From a virus, in IMG/VR virus record IMGVR_UViG_3300025849_000247, positions 1 to 22,434 of that record: a stretch of 22,434 nt of DNA; one strand, 5' to 3'. The position numbers were made by a program, and so were the translations under genes. The notes beneath the pieces were generated by a model. It worked only from the letters and a program-made list of their open reading frames with translations. It did no database searches and was not told where the DNA came from. Positions 3,527 through 12,602 of the stretch are shown here, piece after piece; the first letter of the stretch is position 1, and each line of letters begins with the position of its first letter.

Positions 3527-4877
3527 TGTTCGGCCCTCTCTCCAGTTTGAATACCGTCATTGCAACATCGTGTCGGGTATCTCTAAAGGTGTGTCTTGTA
3601 TTGTAAATAAGAAAGTCACCACTCTTCAAGGAGTCGAGTTGGTCTTGACTTTCCGGATTGTTATCATCATTCAACACATTGATACGAATCTTATCACCAA
3701 CAGAACCACCCGAGGCAATGAAACCAGGCCCTGGCACTGTCACGTCCATCATGTTTTTAAATATAGCATTTCGGTATGCAAGGTTCTCTATCTTCTTGAG
3801 AAACATAGCAGGACTTACTTCGTCATGAATACTTTTCTTATCGCTGTATACACCACGAGAAACGATATTATGGAATATCTTTGCATTAGTATTATGTAGG
3901 TGATCCCCTTCGATGTTCACATCAACGAAATCCGGAGATTTGTAATAGGGGTCATATACATTTTGTTTTGCATAACTAATCAATCCATTCTCACTCGCCT
4001 TCAGTAACAATGCATCTAAACTAAAGTGTTGTGCGGTAGTACGACCATTACTAATATCTGTGACAGTATATAATGAACCCACACCACCCGACATAAGTTG
4101 GTTAAGTGTGTTCTGCATCTTACTAGTCTTCATTGTTTGGACTTGGAAGTATTGCATTGAAGCATCTCCCCCTTCTTCCTGTGCCTGTGTATTGGCAGGA
4201 GAGAACAAGAAAGGAATCTCTCTGTTCCATGCAGGTTGTTCTAACATCTTATCTAAACTACCTAGTCTTAGGTTCTGGTCGTGGATAGATGCATACAAGA
4301 AAAACGGCATACCCAAGTCAGTAGTTGCCTTACCTGTCAACCAAGTTGCGGCTTCGAGGGGGTGCATGTATGGGATAATACCCTTGAAGTTATTCTGAAC
4401 AGACTCTCCTGCATAAGAAAGATCCACATTCTTACCACATTCATTCTGACATAATTTCAGTATCTCGGTATTCAGATCATCTCGTATGGCACGTGAAATG
4501 TTTTTGGTCTTACTCACGAATGCATGTTCATCCATAAAACTGAACACGTATAACGAGGAGTTACCTGAGTTAGAAGACTTGACGATGTTATCAATACCGG
4601 TCAACAAGAAAGAACGATCCATAACAACTTCTTCGGATTCGGACTTACTCATCTCACTCAACATCTTGATATGTAATCTGTCGGTACCACTGAAACCCAA
4701 ACTATCAAATATACCTTGGTCATCAGATATCACAACTTGACCTGAGATATATGGTTTGTCTAGATTCTCATAGAACACCAACTCCACGATCAAAGAACGG
4801 ACATCAACTTTAAAGTCCGTCAATCTATCCGAAGTTATCTCCGCAGTTTGATATTTAAACTGTGATTGTCTTTCCAT
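3519..4877 (-). CDS. 27: baseplate hub subunit, gp27-like
   Basis: 452 residues, somewhat longer than T4 gp27 (about 390). The N-terminus has a beta-rich start with LIVELVFYENLDKPYISGQVVI, like hub proteins of the gp27/VgrG N-terminal type, and the C-terminus ends in a stretch with GDFLIYNTRHTFRDTRH followed by VAMTVFKLERG, a pattern seen at the end of gp27 and Mu gp44-type hubs. Its place directly before the OB-fold hub gene and after gp53 fits the T4 baseplate gene set. gp27 trimerises to form the adaptor between the sixfold tail tube and the threefold gp5 needle. The start codon shares a base with the gp53 stop (TAATG). Assignment rests on motifs and neighbours, without an alignment. Confidence 0.65.
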   Translation of the reverse strand: MERQSQFKYQTAEITSDRLTDFKVDVRSLIVELVFYENLDKPYISGQVVISDDQGIFDSLGFSGTDRLHIKMLSEMSKSESEEVVMDRSFLLTGIDNIVKSSNSGNSSLYVFSFMDEHAFVSKTKNISRAIRDDLNTEILKLCQNECGKNVDLSYAGESVQNNFKGIIPYMHPLEAATWLTGKATTDLGMPFFLYASIHDQNLRLGSLDKMLEQPAWNREIPFLFSPANTQAQEEGGDASMQYFQVQTMKTSKMQNTLNQLMSGGVGSLYTVTDISNGRTTAQHFSLDALLLKASENGLISYAKQNVYDPYYKSPDFVDVNIEGDHLHNTNAKIFHNIVSRGVYSDKKSIHDEVSPAMFLKKIENLAYRNAIFKNMMDVTVPGPGFIASGGSVGDKIRINVLNDDNNPESQDQLDSLKSGDFLIYNTRHTFRDTRHDVAMTVFKLERGPNID

Positions 4878-7094: not shown

Positions 7095-7102
7095 TATTTA
7101 TA
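7095..7102 (-). promoter_or_regulatory. T4-type late promoter, leftward (exact)
   Basis: The plus strand reads TATTTATA, which is TATAAATA on the minus strand. A leftward transcript would begin near 7088, about 38 bases before the gp48 start at 7050. It overlaps the first base of the gp4 start codon and faces the rightward site at 7061-7068. Confidence 0.78.
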
Positions 7103-7608
7103 TGAAAACTTACAAAGGAAAATACAAAATCCGGAATGAATCCAAGTATCTTGGTGATCCCAAGAATGTGGTGTATCGTTCGGGATGGGAAAAGGCTGTC
7201 ATGATATGGTGTGACGACAATCCCAATGTGGTTGGTTGGGTAAGTGAAGAAGTTATTATACCATATATTTGCGAGACTGACAAGCGTCCCCATCGTTATT
7301 TCATGGACTTCATGGTCAAGTATAAGGATGGACGCACTGTACTGATCGAAGTCAAACCACACAAAGAAACTGTCAAACCTAAGTCCGGACAAGGAAGACC
7401 TCGGAGACAGGTACTCAACGAAACACTGACATATATTAAGAATATAAGTAAGTGGACAGCAACCGAGAAGTACGTTGCGGATAGAGGATGGCACTTTGAA
7501 ATATGGGACGAACATAAACTAAGGGCTATGGGGATACTACCCAAACCATTAGGAAAGAAACCAATTAAACCATTGAAGAAAATGAAACCGTATAAGAGAA
7601 AGAAGTGA
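7102..7608 (+). CDS. 4: head completion protein gp4 (TnsA-like nuclease fold)
   Basis: 168 residues; T4 gp4 is about 150. The whole length follows T4 gp4: YRSGWEKAVMIWCDDNPNVV, then VIIPYIC, RRYFMDF-type motif (here HRYFMDF), and LIEVKP. The putative PD-(D/E)XK residues are visible as Glu30, Asp69 and Glu83-Val-Lys85, the arrangement of the TnsA-like endonuclease fold. gp4 acts in the last step of head maturation before the tail joins; whether it cuts DNA in the virion is not settled. The C-terminus is a Lys/Pro-rich tail. The start has no Shine-Dalgarno sequence and sits in an AT-rich leader with repeated CTTTAAAA, directly on the opposing late promoter. The stop overlaps the next gene's GTG start. 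Confidence 0.88.
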   Translation: MKTYKGKYKIRNESKYLGDPKNVVYRSGWEKAVMIWCDDNPNVVGWVSEEVIIPYICETDKRPHRYFMDFMVKYKDGRTVLIEVKPHKETVKPKSGQGRPRRQVLNETLTYIKNISKWTATEKYVADRGWHFEIWDEHKLRAMGILPKPLGKKPIKPLKKMKPYKRKK

Positions 7609-8207
7609 TTAACAAGAAAGTATATTTTATAGGAATGAACAAGATTGCAACCACGTCATTCCACGAGTTGTTCAAATCATCAGGATATAGGTCATGGCAC
7701 TATTCCTGTATGGATGCAGTGACTAGGGAACCATTGATGCTCGCACAACAGATGGGACAGAATGTTGACGAAAACAAATATGTGATGAGTTCTATTGATC
7801 ATGCACAAGTATACAGTGATTTGTTTTTCCATCGTGAATATGCGTGGGTAGATGGTGTCAAGTGGTTCCAGAGGATCTACAACGAACATCCAGATTCTTA
7901 TTTCATATTGCAGACTCGCGAGATGGAAGCATGGTTGGACAGTAAACGTAGACACAAAGACGGTGACTACATGAGACGTTGTTGCGAATATCATGACCTC
8001 GAACACGATGAGATGTTGGAATGGTTCCGTAATGATAGAGAGGAACATGAAGATACCGTCCGTTCTTTTTTTGCAAACAAGAAGTATGCAAACTTCCTTG
8101 AGTGGAATCTCACCACAGACCCTATATCTAAGTTTATAGATTTCGTCAAACCCGACTTTATACTCAGAGAAAAAGATTGGGGGGTTCATGGGAAAACATA
8201 TAAATAA
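7605..8207 (+). CDS. sulfotransferase-like protein (PAPS-binding P-loop fold)
   Basis: 200 residues from a GTG that overlaps the gp4 stop (GTGA). This start is preferred over the later ATG at 7635 because it preserves the first strand, KVYFIG, before the loop GMNKIATTS (residues 10-18), which corresponds to the 5'-phosphosulfate-binding loop. FILQTREMEAWLDSK contains Arg105 and Ser113 eight residues apart, the spacing of the 3'-phosphate-binding Arg/Ser pair in PAPS sulfotransferases. It resembles the short bacterial sulfotransferase-like family with an IG...K.ATTS.H start. Substrate is unknown: a host surface glycan, a metabolite, or a virion protein. It lies between two morphogenesis genes in a late operon and its last codons contain the next late promoter. 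Catalytic activity is not proven. Confidence 0.68.
   Translation: MINKKVYFIGMNKIATTSFHELFKSSGYRSWHYSCMDAVTREPLMLAQQMGQNVDENKYVMSSIDHAQVYSDLFFHREYAWVDGVKWFQRIYNEHPDSYFILQTREMEAWLDSKRRHKDGDYMRRCCEYHDLEHDEMLEWFRNDREEHEDTVRSFFANKKYANFLEWNLTTDPISKFIDFVKPDFILREKDWGVHGKTYK
8199..8206 (+). promoter_or_regulatory. T4-type late promoter, rightward (exact)
   Basis: TATAAATA overlaps the last codons and stop of the sulfotransferase-like gene and lies 28 bases before the ATG at 8234. It would drive the block from 8234 through the tape measure. Confidence 0.8.
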
Positions 8208-8233: not shown

Positions 8234-8818
8234 ATGTCTGAAATTTTTAACAGATTAGAACGACAAGCATTCCGTGCGGGTATTAAACCACGCACCGATG
8301 AAAGTCGTGCTTGGTTTCTGAAGAAAGCACAGAACATGCGTAGTATCAACCGTGAAGCTTTGATGAAGGAAGAACCTCTCAAGGCAAGATCTAAACAGAT
8401 CATTGGTGGTATGTTCATGTTTACCTATGATCCTAAACATAAAGACAAACTACCATACTATGATGAATTTCCATTGGTGATTGTCATTGGGCCTGCGAAG
8501 GGTGGATTCTTAGGATTGAATCTACACTACCTTCCACCCAAGTTGAGGATGCAATTCTTTGCCAACCTCATGGACATTCAAGGTAGTAAGTTGACAGACG
8601 ATGCAAAGTTTTCATTGACATACCGAATGTTAAAGAAATCTTCGAACCTGAGATACTTCAAACCATGTGTAAAACATTATTTGAACTCTCAGGTCACTAG
8701 TCGTTTTGCGGAAGTACCTGCACCTGAGTGGGAGATTGCAATCTTTCTACCGACCGCACAATTCCGTAAACGAAACAGTTACAAGGTTCATTACGATAGT
8801 AGGCAGATGATACGATGA
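8234..8818 (+). CDS. conserved phage virion-type protein, possibly gp2-like DNA end protector
   Basis: 194 residues, started at an ATG with AGGA ten bases upstream. The N-terminal third is basic (FNRLERQAFRAGIKPR, ESRAWFLKKAQNMR). The core reads MFMFTYDPKHKDKLPYYDE, then PLVIVIGPAKGGFLGLNLHYL, and the C-terminal part has YFKPCVKHYLNSQVTSRF and WEIAIFLPTAQF. I recall this pattern, a Tyr-Asp 'LPYYD' strand followed by 'GF.GLNLHYLPP', from large marine myoviruses where it is often labelled a DNA end protector (gp2) or structural protein, but I cannot confirm the equivalence to T4 gp2. It is the first gene after an exact late promoter and is coupled to the gp54-like gene by an ATGA overlap, so a virion assembly role is likely. 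Confidence 0.5.
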   Translation: MSEIFNRLERQAFRAGIKPRTDESRAWFLKKAQNMRSINREALMKEEPLKARSKQIIGGMFMFTYDPKHKDKLPYYDEFPLVIVIGPAKGGFLGLNLHYLPPKLRMQFFANLMDIQGSKLTDDAKFSLTYRMLKKSSNLRYFKPCVKHYLNSQVTSRFAEVPAPEWEIAIFLPTAQFRKRNSYKVHYDSRQMIR

Positions 8819-9543
8819 GTGCAGGATTTTCGATAGAAGACCTAAAGGGTCAAATAGGTGGTTCGGGTGGACTTGCGAAAGCAAACCAGTTCATGGTGCA
8901 ATTACCTCAACTACCAAACTTCTCGGTAGATGCAAGAGAATTAAATCTATTCTGTACAGTTGCTTCATTGCCGGGCAGACAGATAACCTCTGTTGATTAT
9001 CAGATGGGTACGACCATGCGCAAGATCGCAAATGGTTATGCAACTACTGATATATCCATGACATTCCTTGTGGCAAATAACCACGTGGTTCGTCAGTACT
9101 TCGAAGCATGGCAAGCGTTAGCACATGATCCTGTTACCCGAGAGATTGGGTACTTCGATGAATATGTGCGGGATGTTAAGGTTTCGACCTTGGAGAGAGG
9201 TCTGAGATTAAGTCTTATTAAGAAACAATTGGGATTTGTAGATAAGATACCATCGTTCCTAAGAAACAGATTACCGAACGTGGGGCCATTTGACCTCTCG
9301 CAAGGTGAACTAGATCTCGGTGGTTCTTTTTCTATGAAGACTACATACACATGCAACCTGTTGGAGTGTTATCCAACAACATTGACCGATCAAACATTGG
9401 GAAATGGTGAAGAAGGTGTGATGGAATTGAGTGTACAATTGTCGTACACTGATTGGGAAAGTGTGGTCGGTGACTACACTAAAGAAGGCGAAGATATTGC
9501 ACGTGGTGCGATAAGCGGAGTCTTTGCAAAATTATTTGGTTAA
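8815..9543 (+). CDS. 54: tail tube initiator gp54-like / tube-fold protein
   Basis: 242 residues. It has the tail-tube fold pattern shared by gp19, gp48 and gp54: ANQFMVQLPQLPNF, an LFCTVASLPGRQITSVDYQMG strand pair, MRKIANGYATTDISMTF, then VRQYFEAWQAL, and finally YTCNLLECYPTTLT and LSVQLSYTDWE. gp54 binds the gp48 cap and starts polymerisation of the gp19 tube. The position between the baseplate block and the gp26/tape-measure genes favours gp54 over the major tube protein. The start overlaps the preceding stop (ATGA). It is shorter than T4 gp54 (320 residues). The major tail tube gp19 remains an alternative. Confidence 0.6.
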   Translation: MSAGFSIEDLKGQIGGSGGLAKANQFMVQLPQLPNFSVDARELNLFCTVASLPGRQITSVDYQMGTTMRKIANGYATTDISMTFLVANNHVVRQYFEAWQALAHDPVTREIGYFDEYVRDVKVSTLERGLRLSLIKKQLGFVDKIPSFLRNRLPNVGPFDLSQGELDLGGSFSMKTTYTCNLLECYPTTLTDQTLGNGEEGVMELSVQLSYTDWESVVGDYTKEGEDIARGAISGVFAKLFG

Positions 9544-9558
9544 TTATTGGAGAATATT

Positions 9559-10266
9559 ATGGCATTACCAAAACTAAACGCAACACCAAAGTATGAATTG
9601 ATTATACCATCATCAGGACAGAAGATCAAGTACCGCCCTTACTTAGTAAAGGAAGAGAAGGTATTGATGATAGCATTCGAGACAGGTGATCAGAAACAAA
9701 CGTTAGGCGCAGTAGTCGATACTCTACTTGCGTGTGTATACGAAGACATTGATGAGGGAGACTTAACAACATTTGATATTGAGTATATGTTTACTCAAGT
9801 CAGATCAAAGTCAGTAGGCGAATCATCAACAATCTTATTGAAGTGTACTGAATGCGAACATCAGAACGAACGACCTATTGATATATCGTCTATCAAGGTT
9901 ATTGTTCCCGAAGGTGTCAGTAACATCATACAGTTAACAGATGATATTAGTTTGGAGATGACATATCCGAAGTATAATCAAGTAAAGAATACAAACTTTG
10001 AAGGTAATCAGATAGAGGTAGGATTTGGTTTAGTTGCCAACTCCATTGCCGCGATCCTAACCGAAGACGAACGAACCGACACTAAAGATGCAACCCATGC
10101 CGAAGTGCTAGAGTTCATCGAGTCAATGACACAAGAACAGTTTAAGAAAGTTGGTGACTACCTCGAAGCAATGCCAGCCCTAATGCACACCGAAAGGTTT
10201 GCTTGCGAAAGTTGCGGAGAGACTAACACGGTGGTATTGAAGGGGATGCAGGATTTTTTATCCTAA
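9559..10266 (+). CDS. 26: baseplate hub chaperone gp26-like; zero-frame product of a putative frameshift pair
   Basis: 235 residues from ATG 9559, chosen over an upstream TTG because GGAG lies six bases before it. The protein begins MALPKLNATPKYELIIPS and resembles the T4 gp26-type hub assembly family. Two CxxC pairs (KCTECEH near residue 95 and ACESCGE near residue 215) could form a zinc ribbon. The C-terminal half is helical (EVLEFIESMTQEQFKKVGDYL). It precedes the tape measure, the place occupied by tail assembly chaperones in most tailed phages. The last codons contain TTTTTTA followed at once by TCC TAA, and the -1 frame stays open for 63 more codons, so a longer fusion is likely to be made too. 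Confidence 0.68.
   Translation: MALPKLNATPKYELIIPSSGQKIKYRPYLVKEEKVLMIAFETGDQKQTLGAVVDTLLACVYEDIDEGDLTTFDIEYMFTQVRSKSVGESSTILLKCTECEHQNERPIDISSIKVIVPEGVSNIIQLTDDISLEMTYPKYNQVKNTNFEGNQIEVGFGLVANSIAAILTEDERTDTKDATHAEVLEFIESMTQEQFKKVGDYLEAMPALMHTERFACESCGETNTVVLKGMQDFLS
10254..10260 (+). promoter_or_regulatory. candidate -1 ribosomal frameshift slippery site T TTT TTA
   Basis: In the gp26 frame the codons are GAT TTT TTA TCC TAA. Slipping back one base lets both tRNAs re-pair on TTT TTT, and reading goes on as ATC CTA AAC into the downstream frame. A purine-rich AAGGGG lies eight bases upstream and could act as a Shine-Dalgarno-type stimulator. Downstream, TTAGTC and GACTAA (about 10288-10310) could pair as a weak stem. 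Confidence 0.65.
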
Positions 10267-10451
10267 ACCTTTCTCACGATAACTTAGTCAATCATTATAA
10301 GACTAACTTTTCGTTGATGCAACATCATAATTATAGTCTAGCAGAAATAGAGACAATGATGCCGTGGGAAAGGGAGATATACGTTAGTATGTTAGTTGAT
10401 TATGTGAAGGAAGAGAATGACCGAATTAAACAAGAACAACAAAATGGATAA
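10260..10451 (+). CDS. -1 frame extension of gp26 (gpGT-like tail chaperone part)
   Basis: This frame has no start codon with a ribosome binding site: the internal ATGs near 10316 and 10351 lack Shine-Dalgarno sequences. Entered by a -1 shift at 10254-10260 it gives 63 residues, ending YVKEENDRIKQEQQNG just before the tape measure. It contains MMQ-like and MPWEREIYVSMLVDY motifs; a 'MPW.R..Y' segment is typical of the second part of tail assembly chaperones. The fusion with gp26 would be about 297 residues. The arrangement mirrors lambda G/GT, P2 E/E' and other pairs in front of tape measure genes. It could also be an independently started small gene (a gp51 counterpart), but no start supports that well. 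Confidence 0.6.
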   Translation: MLNLSHDNLVNHYKTNFSLMQHHNYSLAEIETMMPWEREIYVSMLVDYVKEENDRIKQEQQNG

Positions 10452-10457
10452 GATGCA

Positions 10458-12602
10458 ATGCCAGAAAACAAACCATATGCCCTAGAGAATGCAATCAATT
10501 CGTTGCAATCCACGAATGGTCAGCAGAACGAGCAGATTATAAAGCAAGGATCAGAAGGTCTGCGCAATGATGCCTCGTTACATAAGACTATGAAAGAAGT
10601 TCTGGCAGAGTTCAGAGGTTCTCGCGGTGACAACGAAGAAGCAAGGCGTGATGGTAATAAGAAGTCAGGGGGTGCAACACCTGCACCTTCTGGTGGTGCA
10701 ACACCAGAGATAGAGGGTGCCTTTAGTGGTCTTGGTTCTCTTGCGACAATTGGTATTGCTTTCGCAGGTTTTGTTAATGGTCTTGTTCAAGGATGGTTCG
10801 GTGTCATCAAAGATCTCGGTAAGGTGGTAAAGGGTACTTTTAATTTCTTCGGAAACACAATGAAGAAAATAATCACCTCGCTAGGTAACGTTATTAGACT
10901 GGGAATTGATAAGGCACTCGGTTCAAACGTTATGAAGAAAATGACGGAGGGATTTAATAAGTTAAAAGGATCTTTATCGGCATGGTTCTCCGAGAAATTT
11001 GCATTCCCCAAGTTCACTAAATTTCTAAATTCATTCAAGTTAGGTGTAGACGGTAAAGCAGTTGTCAATACAAATTCGTTCGTAAAGAAATTACTCAGCA
11101 TTAGGACAGCGGTTACTGGGTTCTTCACTAGCATTGGTGGGTTCTTCACTAAGATTGGCGGCAAGATAACTGCATTCAAAGATGCCATTATGAAACCAGT
11201 CAAAGGAATTGCCCTTGGAATCCTTACGACAGTGGAAAATTTGAAGGATTCTTTTAAGTCATCCAAGATTGTAGCACAGTTTGGGAAAATTAAGACAGCG
11301 GTTACTGGGTTCTTCGCTATGATTGGTGGTAAGATAACTGCATTGAAAGATGCCATTATGAAACCATTCAAAGCAATTGGTGATGCATTCAGTAAAGCAA
11401 AGACTGCACTATTTGGTGCAAGCGATACAAGTAAAACACTAAAGGATACCACTAGTAAGATGGGTGGTGTCATTACGAAGATGAAAGCAATTGCTCCCTC
11501 ATTATTCAGAGCATTCACTGCACTTGGTAAAATATTAGGTTGGCCTTTAACTATTGCTATTGGTCTCTATGCAGGAATCAAGGCATCAATAGACAAGTTT
11601 AAGTTAGGTGACATAATTGGTGGTGTGATGTCATTCCTTACTGCGGGATTTAATGCCGCCATCTTTAGTGTGGTGGATATTCTTAAAGACGGTCTCTCTT
11701 GGGTAGCAGGTATGTTAGGGGGTGATAAGATATCAGCATTCTTAGACTCGTTTACATTCGAAGAAATGTTCTCCTCTATTATGGTTGAGATCGAAGACTT
11801 CATCAGGCGGCCGGGAGAAAAACTAGGTGAGATGATGGATGCCGCCAAAGCATGGTGGGAAGGATTCGACTTCATGGAATCTGTTAAGGACATAGGTGCC
11901 ATGCTTTCTGGATTGATAGATGATGCTATTGAGTGGATCAAAGGTAAGTTACCTAGTATAGATATGGTTACTGGATTCTTTGGTAAGTTGAATCCATTCT
12001 CTTCGGATGAAGAAGTACCAGTCGCGCCAGAGACAACACCTGTAGCAACACCAACTGCGGCAGCTGCATCAACCCAAGAAGTGGATGCCGAGACAATTAA
12101 AGTAATGAAGACGGTTGCCAAAGCAGAGACTAATCCTAAGAAACCAGTTGACGCAGAGACTATGGCATTCATTAAAGATCAAGACGATCCTGCATACATC
12201 GCCAAACAGAAGACCAAAGCAGAGAAACGTGCCAAAGCAAAGGCAGACATGGATCTCCGTGCCGAAGAAAGATTGCTCAGAGACGAAGAGAAACTGCGAA
12301 AGATCAAGTCTACTGGTAAGTACAAGGGTATGGATCTAGAAGAGTCCGGCGCATATGGACAACGCATCTTGTCTAACACAGATAATAAACTCGCAAAGAT
12401 TGAAACAATCAAAAAGAATCGTGGTATGGATGTTGATAATATGTCTAGAGAGAATGCACGTTCTAGTGGTAGAAACGCAGTTACCGTAGTTGCACCATCG
12501 TCACAGAACGTGACTACCAACAACAATCAAAGTACTGCTGCGATTATGACACAGAATCAACCAACAGTTGATTATAATGATAGGACTTATGCTGTAGCAT
12601 AA
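10458..12602 (+). CDS. 29: tail tape measure protein (gp29-like)
   Basis: 714 residues; T4 gp29 is 590. It has the composition of a tape measure: charged helical N-terminus, a Gly/Ala/Pro spacer (about 70-90), many amphipathic or hydrophobic helices (IGIAFAGFVNGLVQGW, LTIAIGLYAGIKASI), and a repeated motif TAVTGFF...IGGKITA.KDAIMKP at about 217-247 and 280-303. From about 515 there is a Thr/Pro/Ala linker, then a highly charged Lys/Glu coiled region (570-640), and an Asn/Gln/Thr-rich end. It follows the chaperone/frameshift gene as tape measures usually do, six bases after its stop. It should set tail length inside the tube and be ejected first at infection. The stop is followed at once by the convergent terminator. 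Confidence 0.78.
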   Translation: MPENKPYALENAINSLQSTNGQQNEQIIKQGSEGLRNDASLHKTMKEVLAEFRGSRGDNEEARRDGNKKSGGATPAPSGGATPEIEGAFSGLGSLATIGIAFAGFVNGLVQGWFGVIKDLGKVVKGTFNFFGNTMKKIITSLGNVIRLGIDKALGSNVMKKMTEGFNKLKGSLSAWFSEKFAFPKFTKFLNSFKLGVDGKAVVNTNSFVKKLLSIRTAVTGFFTSIGGFFTKIGGKITAFKDAIMKPVKGIALGILTTVENLKDSFKSSKIVAQFGKIKTAVTGFFAMIGGKITALKDAIMKPFKAIGDAFSKAKTALFGASDTSKTLKDTTSKMGGVITKMKAIAPSLFRAFTALGKILGWPLTIAIGLYAGIKASIDKFKLGDIIGGVMSFLTAGFNAAIFSVVDILKDGLSWVAGMLGGDKISAFLDSFTFEEMFSSIMVEIEDFIRRPGEKLGEMMDAAKAWWEGFDFMESVKDIGAMLSGLIDDAIEWIKGKLPSIDMVTGFFGKLNPFSSDEEVPVAPETTPVATPTAAAASTQEVDAETIKVMKTVAKAETNPKKPVDAETMAFIKDQDDPAYIAKQKTKAEKRAKAKADMDLRAEERLLRDEEKLRKIKSTGKYKGMDLEESGAYGQRILSNTDNKLAKIETIKKNRGMDVDNMSRENARSSGRNAVTVVAPSSQNVTTNNNQSTAAIMTQNQPTVDYNDRTYAVA
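11105..11365 (+). repeat. internal duplication in tape measure gene (copies 11105-11197 and 11294-11365)
   Basis: The two copies begin with the same 22-base stretch encoding TAVTGFF and end with the same 17 bases encoding DAIMKP. The first carries seven extra codons that partly repeat the GGFFTKIGG element. Base-level similarity, not only protein similarity, suggests a fairly recent in-frame duplication. Confidence 0.75.

Follow-up and report, generated by a model that had tools for sequence, protein, structure and literature searches.

The gp26-like gene of a T4-like virus (IMG/VR virus record IMGVR_UViG_3300025849_000247) stops two codons after the heptamer TTTTTTA, and a second open frame continues in the -1 register towards the next gene. 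The question was whether the two frames encode separate proteins or the short and long forms of one tail assembly chaperone. The whole record of 22,434 bases, which may be a fragment, was analysed and is called the window below. The initial annotation had read the arrangement as a programmed -1 frameshift. This reading was supported, as a check of 150 relatives showed neither a general loss of the heptamer or frame nor a separate start as the rule. On the sequence evidence, a frameshift that joins the gp26-like protein to the extension, giving a long and a short chaperone from one gene, is considered very probable.

Locus and gene order

The structural module of the window is T4-like, and the virus is marine. 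The chaperone gene is preceded by a tail-tube-like gene and followed by an open reading frame (ORF) without recognisable homologue. The features are as follows.

7102-7608, plus strand: gp4-like head closure gene
7605-8207, plus strand: ORF of 200 residues, function unassigned, between the gp4-like and gp2-like genes
8234-8818, plus strand: gp2-like DNA end protector
8815-9543, plus strand: tail-tube-like gene, 5' neighbour of the chaperone gene (phrog_45 tail tube, E 1e-33)
9559-10266, plus strand: gp26-like gene, short form (TAC-N), 235 residues (PF12322, E 3e-55; phrog_150)
10240-10245, plus strand: SD-like AAGGGG, probable frameshift stimulator, 8-nt gap to the heptamer
10254-10260, plus strand: slippery heptamer T_TTT_TTA (sequence; conservation in relatives)
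10260-10451, plus strand: -1 extension (TAC-C), 63 codons plus stop (phrog_634, E 2e-28)
10264-10266, plus strand: 0-frame stop TAA of the short form (sequence)
10284-10306, plus strand: weak stem TTAGTC/GACTAA, unsupported as stimulator (z -1.4)
10458-12602, plus strand: probable tape measure gene, 714 residues (position, size, two weak hydrophobic segments)

The ORF at 10458-12602 had no family match in Pfam or PHROGs and no tblastn match in phages; on the three grounds listed it is probably the tape measure protein. Other members carry, at or close to this position, a gene with a peptidase or lysozyme annotation; the one in P-HM2 is weakly similar to a tape measure family. The start of the ORF at 7605-8207 (KVYFIGMNKIATTSFHELF) resembles a nucleotide-binding loop of the sulfotransferase type. 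On the minus strand, between 693 and 3526, a gp5-like hub protein with an OB fold and a lysozyme-like domain appears short (289 residues), and an adjoining protein of 653 residues carries an amidase domain at its C-terminus.

Slip site and its conservation

The gp26-like ORF starts with ATG at 9559 and ends GAT TTT TTA TCC TAA (10252-10266). The position of the heptamer two codons before the stop was confirmed to the base, in the register T_TTT_TTA. The 63-codon -1 frame was likewise placed correctly: it covers 10260-10448 with its TAA at 10449-10451, six bases before the ATG at 10458.

Relatives were gathered from IMG/VR and from annotated phages (259 loci), and removal of sequences that were at least 90% identical left a non-redundant set of 150. 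In 256 of the 259 loci, the final codons of the gp26-like gene contained TTTTTTN in the 0 frame. In the non-redundant set, 149/150 relatives had it in frame shortly before the gp26 stop, and it was kept in 87 of the 88 representatives below 60% identity. Carriers include phages of cyanobacteria, Pelagibacter, Vibrio, Stenotrophomonas, Pseudomonas and rhizobia. At other ORF ends of the same loci, TTTTTTN occurred in 0/261 cases and any X_XXY_YYZ (Y = A or T) in 11/261, and across the whole window T6 runs were under-represented (16 versus 29 expected). The P-site codon was TTT in 150/150 relatives, whereas elsewhere in the gene 75% of Phe codons are TTT; the codon preceding it ended in T in 149/150, more than codon usage explains. 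Nominal p-values for this conservation are too small because the sequences are related. The slip-site arrangement is not due to chance.

The sole exception among the 150 is a single lineage (L068, L075 and L077, at about 3685-3700) that ends TCG TTT TTT TAG, where the first base of the heptamer is G and the heptamer rule is fitted loosely. Its -1 extension is intact, and slippage there may occur as G_UUU_UUU or on the codons that immediately precede the stop. In Pelagibacter phage Mosig (1990-2025), the 0-frame stop follows the slip site by about seven codons, which gives the two forms a longer overlap than other relatives have.

The extension in the -1 frame

In the window, the -1 frame is open from 10227 onward. 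An open extension of 56-68 codons was found in 145/145 loci not cut by a contig end, so that the proposed check on relatives returned both heptamer and frame as kept. In pairs with 75-97% extension identity, difference rates at positions 1, 2 and 3 of the -1-frame codons were 0.14, 0.05 and 0.37. Because of this pattern the -1 frame is taken to be under selection at the protein level, and by sequence it evolves as selected coding sequence.

The consensus of the extension in relatives is LSHDNLxNYYxTNFxLMQHHxYSLTExExMxPWEREIY. The family it matches, phrog_634, is named 'baseplate hub assembly catalyst' (gp51), and the extension aligns to residues 206-243 of T4 gp51 (hhalign, E 5.6e-5). Its AF2 model consists of three helices (pLDDT 88). 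Foldseek found nothing significant for this model among viral models; its top row (E 0.24) was the 'baseplate hub assembly catalyst' of Acinetobacter phage ZZ1. Pfam matches of the extension (Stealth_CR2 and others) were far below the cut-off and were dismissed.

Signals around the slip site

The purine-rich AAGGGG that had been noted eight bases upstream of the heptamer is present at 10240-10245, with a gap of 8 nt to the heptamer and of 9 to its second base. Hexamers ending 8 nt before the heptamer contained AGG, GGA or GGG in 97-98% of relatives, compared with a median of about 4-6% at other positions. The E/K-G residues encoded by the tract are conserved, and codon choice is biased beyond that. 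GAG made up 56/81 of the Glu codons at the tract, but 27% of those in the gene (nominal P 7e-15); GGG made up 35/147 of the Gly codons, versus 5-6% (P 1e-13). Below 60% identity the figures were 20/34 for GAG (P 1.5e-4) and 17/85 for GGG (P 3e-6). Since Lys at the tract had no comparable bias (14/39), the SD-like signal rests on the Glu and Gly codons. Judged from these sequences, AAGGGG is a probable frameshift stimulator.

The stem TTAGTC/GACTAA, also pointed out in the initial annotation, exists (10284-10289 paired with 10301-10306), but a role as stimulator was not borne out. Stimulatory structures usually begin 5-8 nt 3' of the heptamer (PMC4066793); this stem begins 23 nt 3' of it. Its z-score is about -1.4, and pairing in relatives (58%) was barely higher than in a shuffle (54%). 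An Rfam search for the downstream structure gave no match. The stem-loop was rejected as a stimulator on the grounds of distance, z-score and absent conservation. We lean towards the view that an internal SD-like tract 8 nt 5' of the T6 heptamer sets chaperone frameshifting, without a downstream RNA structure, in marine and soil T4-like viruses. If so, a 5' stimulator of the dnaX/IS type would act alone on a viral U_UUU_UUN site, and the tract would be kept by synonymous-codon selection over large distances and in several host groups.

The short form as a probable tail assembly chaperone

T4 gp26 and T4 gp51 both align with the gp26-like profile, with E values of 8.7e-16 and 1.8e-6, respectively. 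No solved structure was found as a sequence relative of the short form. Its AF2 model has a pLDDT of 93.6. When Foldseek matches were re-examined, model residues 1-96 superimposed on 3FGX with Z 8.1 (rmsd 4.0, 87 residues) and on 2OB9, the HK97 chaperone, with Z 7.5 (rmsd 3.2, 85 residues); the rows that followed had Z 4.7 and 3.3. Both 3FGX and 2OB9 are described as tail assembly chaperones (PMC9603447). The model thus lends moderate support to a tail assembly chaperone fold in the N-domain, a Z of about 8 being middling and support rather than proof.

The protein has two CxxC pairs, at residues about 96-99 and 216-219, which are nearly invariant in close relatives and lost in several distant ones (e.g. 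DLP_6, P-SSM2). They probably form a zinc ribbon just 5' of the slip site.

The 22-kb record, possibly a fragment, contains one PF12322 match. Related phage records had one gene place apiece (681 places in 681 records), which agrees with both forms coming from a single gene.

Alternative explanations

The extension might be a small gene of its own ('gp51'), with its translation started at the gp26 stop through re-initiation or coupling. Public records do annotate it separately (P-SSM2, KVP40, P-HM2, S-CRM01), and in KVP40, S-CRM01 and RL2RES a -1-frame ATG overlaps the gp26 stop, where re-initiation is conceivable. However, the annotated starts vary among phages, and some cut into the conserved domain. 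The in-frame starts of the open -1 frame in the window are TTG at 10314, ATG at 10317 and later ones; none has an SD site, in agreement with the earlier statement that this frame has no start with a ribosome binding site, and the first of them falls 3' of the conserved LSHDNLVNHYKTNF segment. Among the 150 relatives, 96 have any start codon before codon 12 and 59 an ATG, but an SD-like site accompanies such a start in only three. A separate start was rejected as a general mechanism on this last count. Re-initiation would also leave the invariant T run unexplained, and a separate gene is regarded as very improbable.

Slippage of RNA polymerase on the T run, by which a subset of mRNA with an altered number of U residues would encode the fusion, appears even less probable. 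T6 is short for polymerase slippage, and the run is exactly T6 in 87/150 relatives, the window included. It is T8 in 42/150 and T7 in 21/150, and long U or A runs have been linked to transcriptional slippage (PMC4066793). The invariant X_XXY_YYZ register and the SD-like tract at fixed spacing are nevertheless features of a ribosomal shift. That the stop marks a decayed or mis-assembled reading frame, with the similarity a mere relic, is hardly credible, and nothing was found in its favour: the same stop and shift recur in independent contigs and in genomes of cultured phages at widely differing identities, and the -1 frame is, from its codon-position rates, under protein-level selection.

Proposed mechanism

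With the programmed frameshift as the preferred reading, most ribosomes would stop at the TAA at 10264-10266 and release the short form of 235 residues (TAC-N). A minority, held by AAGGGG 8 nt upstream, would move back by one base on U_UUU_UUA and translate a further 63 codons to give a TAC-NC of about 297 residues. By analogy with lambda gpG/gpGT, the short form may coat the neighbouring tape measure protein, and the few long copies may recruit the tail tube protein.

Mass spectrometry for a peptide across a TTT-TTT-ATC junction had been suggested. On the HIV heptamer, which is the same U_UUU_UUA, the A-site codon yields 70-80% Leu and 20-30% Phe (PMC5009743). By this analogy F-F-I would hold only as the minor form, and the main form expected is F-L-I, with Leu from UUA; in context, D-F-L-I-L-N would predominate at the junction, alongside some D-F-F-I.

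Previous annotation and T4 genetics

A 2016 review described G-T frameshifting as conserved among long-tailed phages 'except T4' (PMC5009743). According to the accessible passages of PMC10885494, which cites Vladimirov et al. 2022, some T4-like phages, rather than frameshifting, have a short gene plus a longer, fused one; in those of PMC12846349, poly-T runs in the TAC-N genes of T4-like phages are a known -1 signal. The suggestion that such frameshift logic would be new in a T4-like phage did not stand: it was published in 2022, together with the two-gene alternative of T4 (cited in PMC10885494 and PMC12846349). Judging from the accessible passages of the literature, tail-chaperone frameshifting had been proposed earlier for T4-like viruses, and the system described here is ordinary in kind. 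In the abstract of their 2022 paper, Vladimirov and co-workers reportedly state that frameshifting appears conserved in several T4-like groups and not in that of T4.

Annotation of the extension is inconsistent. It is entered as a separate 'gp51' or hypothetical protein with differing starts, or as no gene at all, in the records of KVP40, P-SSM2, P-HM2, C48C1, S-CRM01, RL2RES, ACG-2014d and ORM_20 (L082, L083, L086, L088, L089, L091, L093 and L094).

Cyanophage 'gp51' was reported to have about 20% of the usual length, with the first roughly 200 residues missing (Sullivan et al. 2010, PMC3037559). It would be short because the residues it lacks are encoded in the gp26-like frame, to which the shift links it. 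The frameshift would thereby account for a lasting annotation error, in which the C-terminus of the long chaperone was entered as a tiny 'gp51' in many T4-like genomes.

Both T4 gp26 and T4 gp51 match PF12322 and phrog_150 and are therefore paralogues. T4 gp51 carries the extension in frame at its C-terminus and gp26 is without it. Genes 26 and 51 adjoin on opposite strands, and gp26 ends GAG TTC TTT GAG TTA CTA TAA, with no slip site. As far as sequences tell, T4 appears to keep the short (26) and long (51) forms as two paralogous genes, whereas the viruses studied here would make both from one. The genetics of T4 make sense in this light, as a single chaperone seems to have been divided between two genes, with gp26 as its short form and gp51 as its long one. 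The proportion of short and long chaperone in very abundant ocean viruses may be governed by the conserved SD-like tract.

Comparison with known systems

Among the closest counterparts are the T4-like tail chaperones of Vladimirov, Gautam and Davidson (2022, Virology 566:9-15), which, as cited in the accessible passages, share the gp26/gp51 family and a poly-T slip site in TAC-N genes. Those passages on T4-like chaperone frameshifting describe neither this uncultivated virus nor the SD-like tract, which is the least familiar element of the system. T4 itself has the same PF12322 proteins and the C-terminal extension on gp51, but uses two genes in place of one gene with a slip site.

Escherichia coli dnaX likewise has an SD-like stimulator about 10 nt 5' of an X_XXY_YYZ site. 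It differs in its A_AAA_AAG heptamer, its strong stem-loop and its about equal products, whereas no conserved stem is present here.

Lambda gpG/gpGT and P2 E/E+E' have the order tube, chaperone, -1 extension and tape measure, with a -1 shift near the end of the short frame and short and long products, features that the present locus probably shares. The system described here differs from both in that it uses another protein family by sequence, a U_UUU_UUA site and an upstream SD-like tract.
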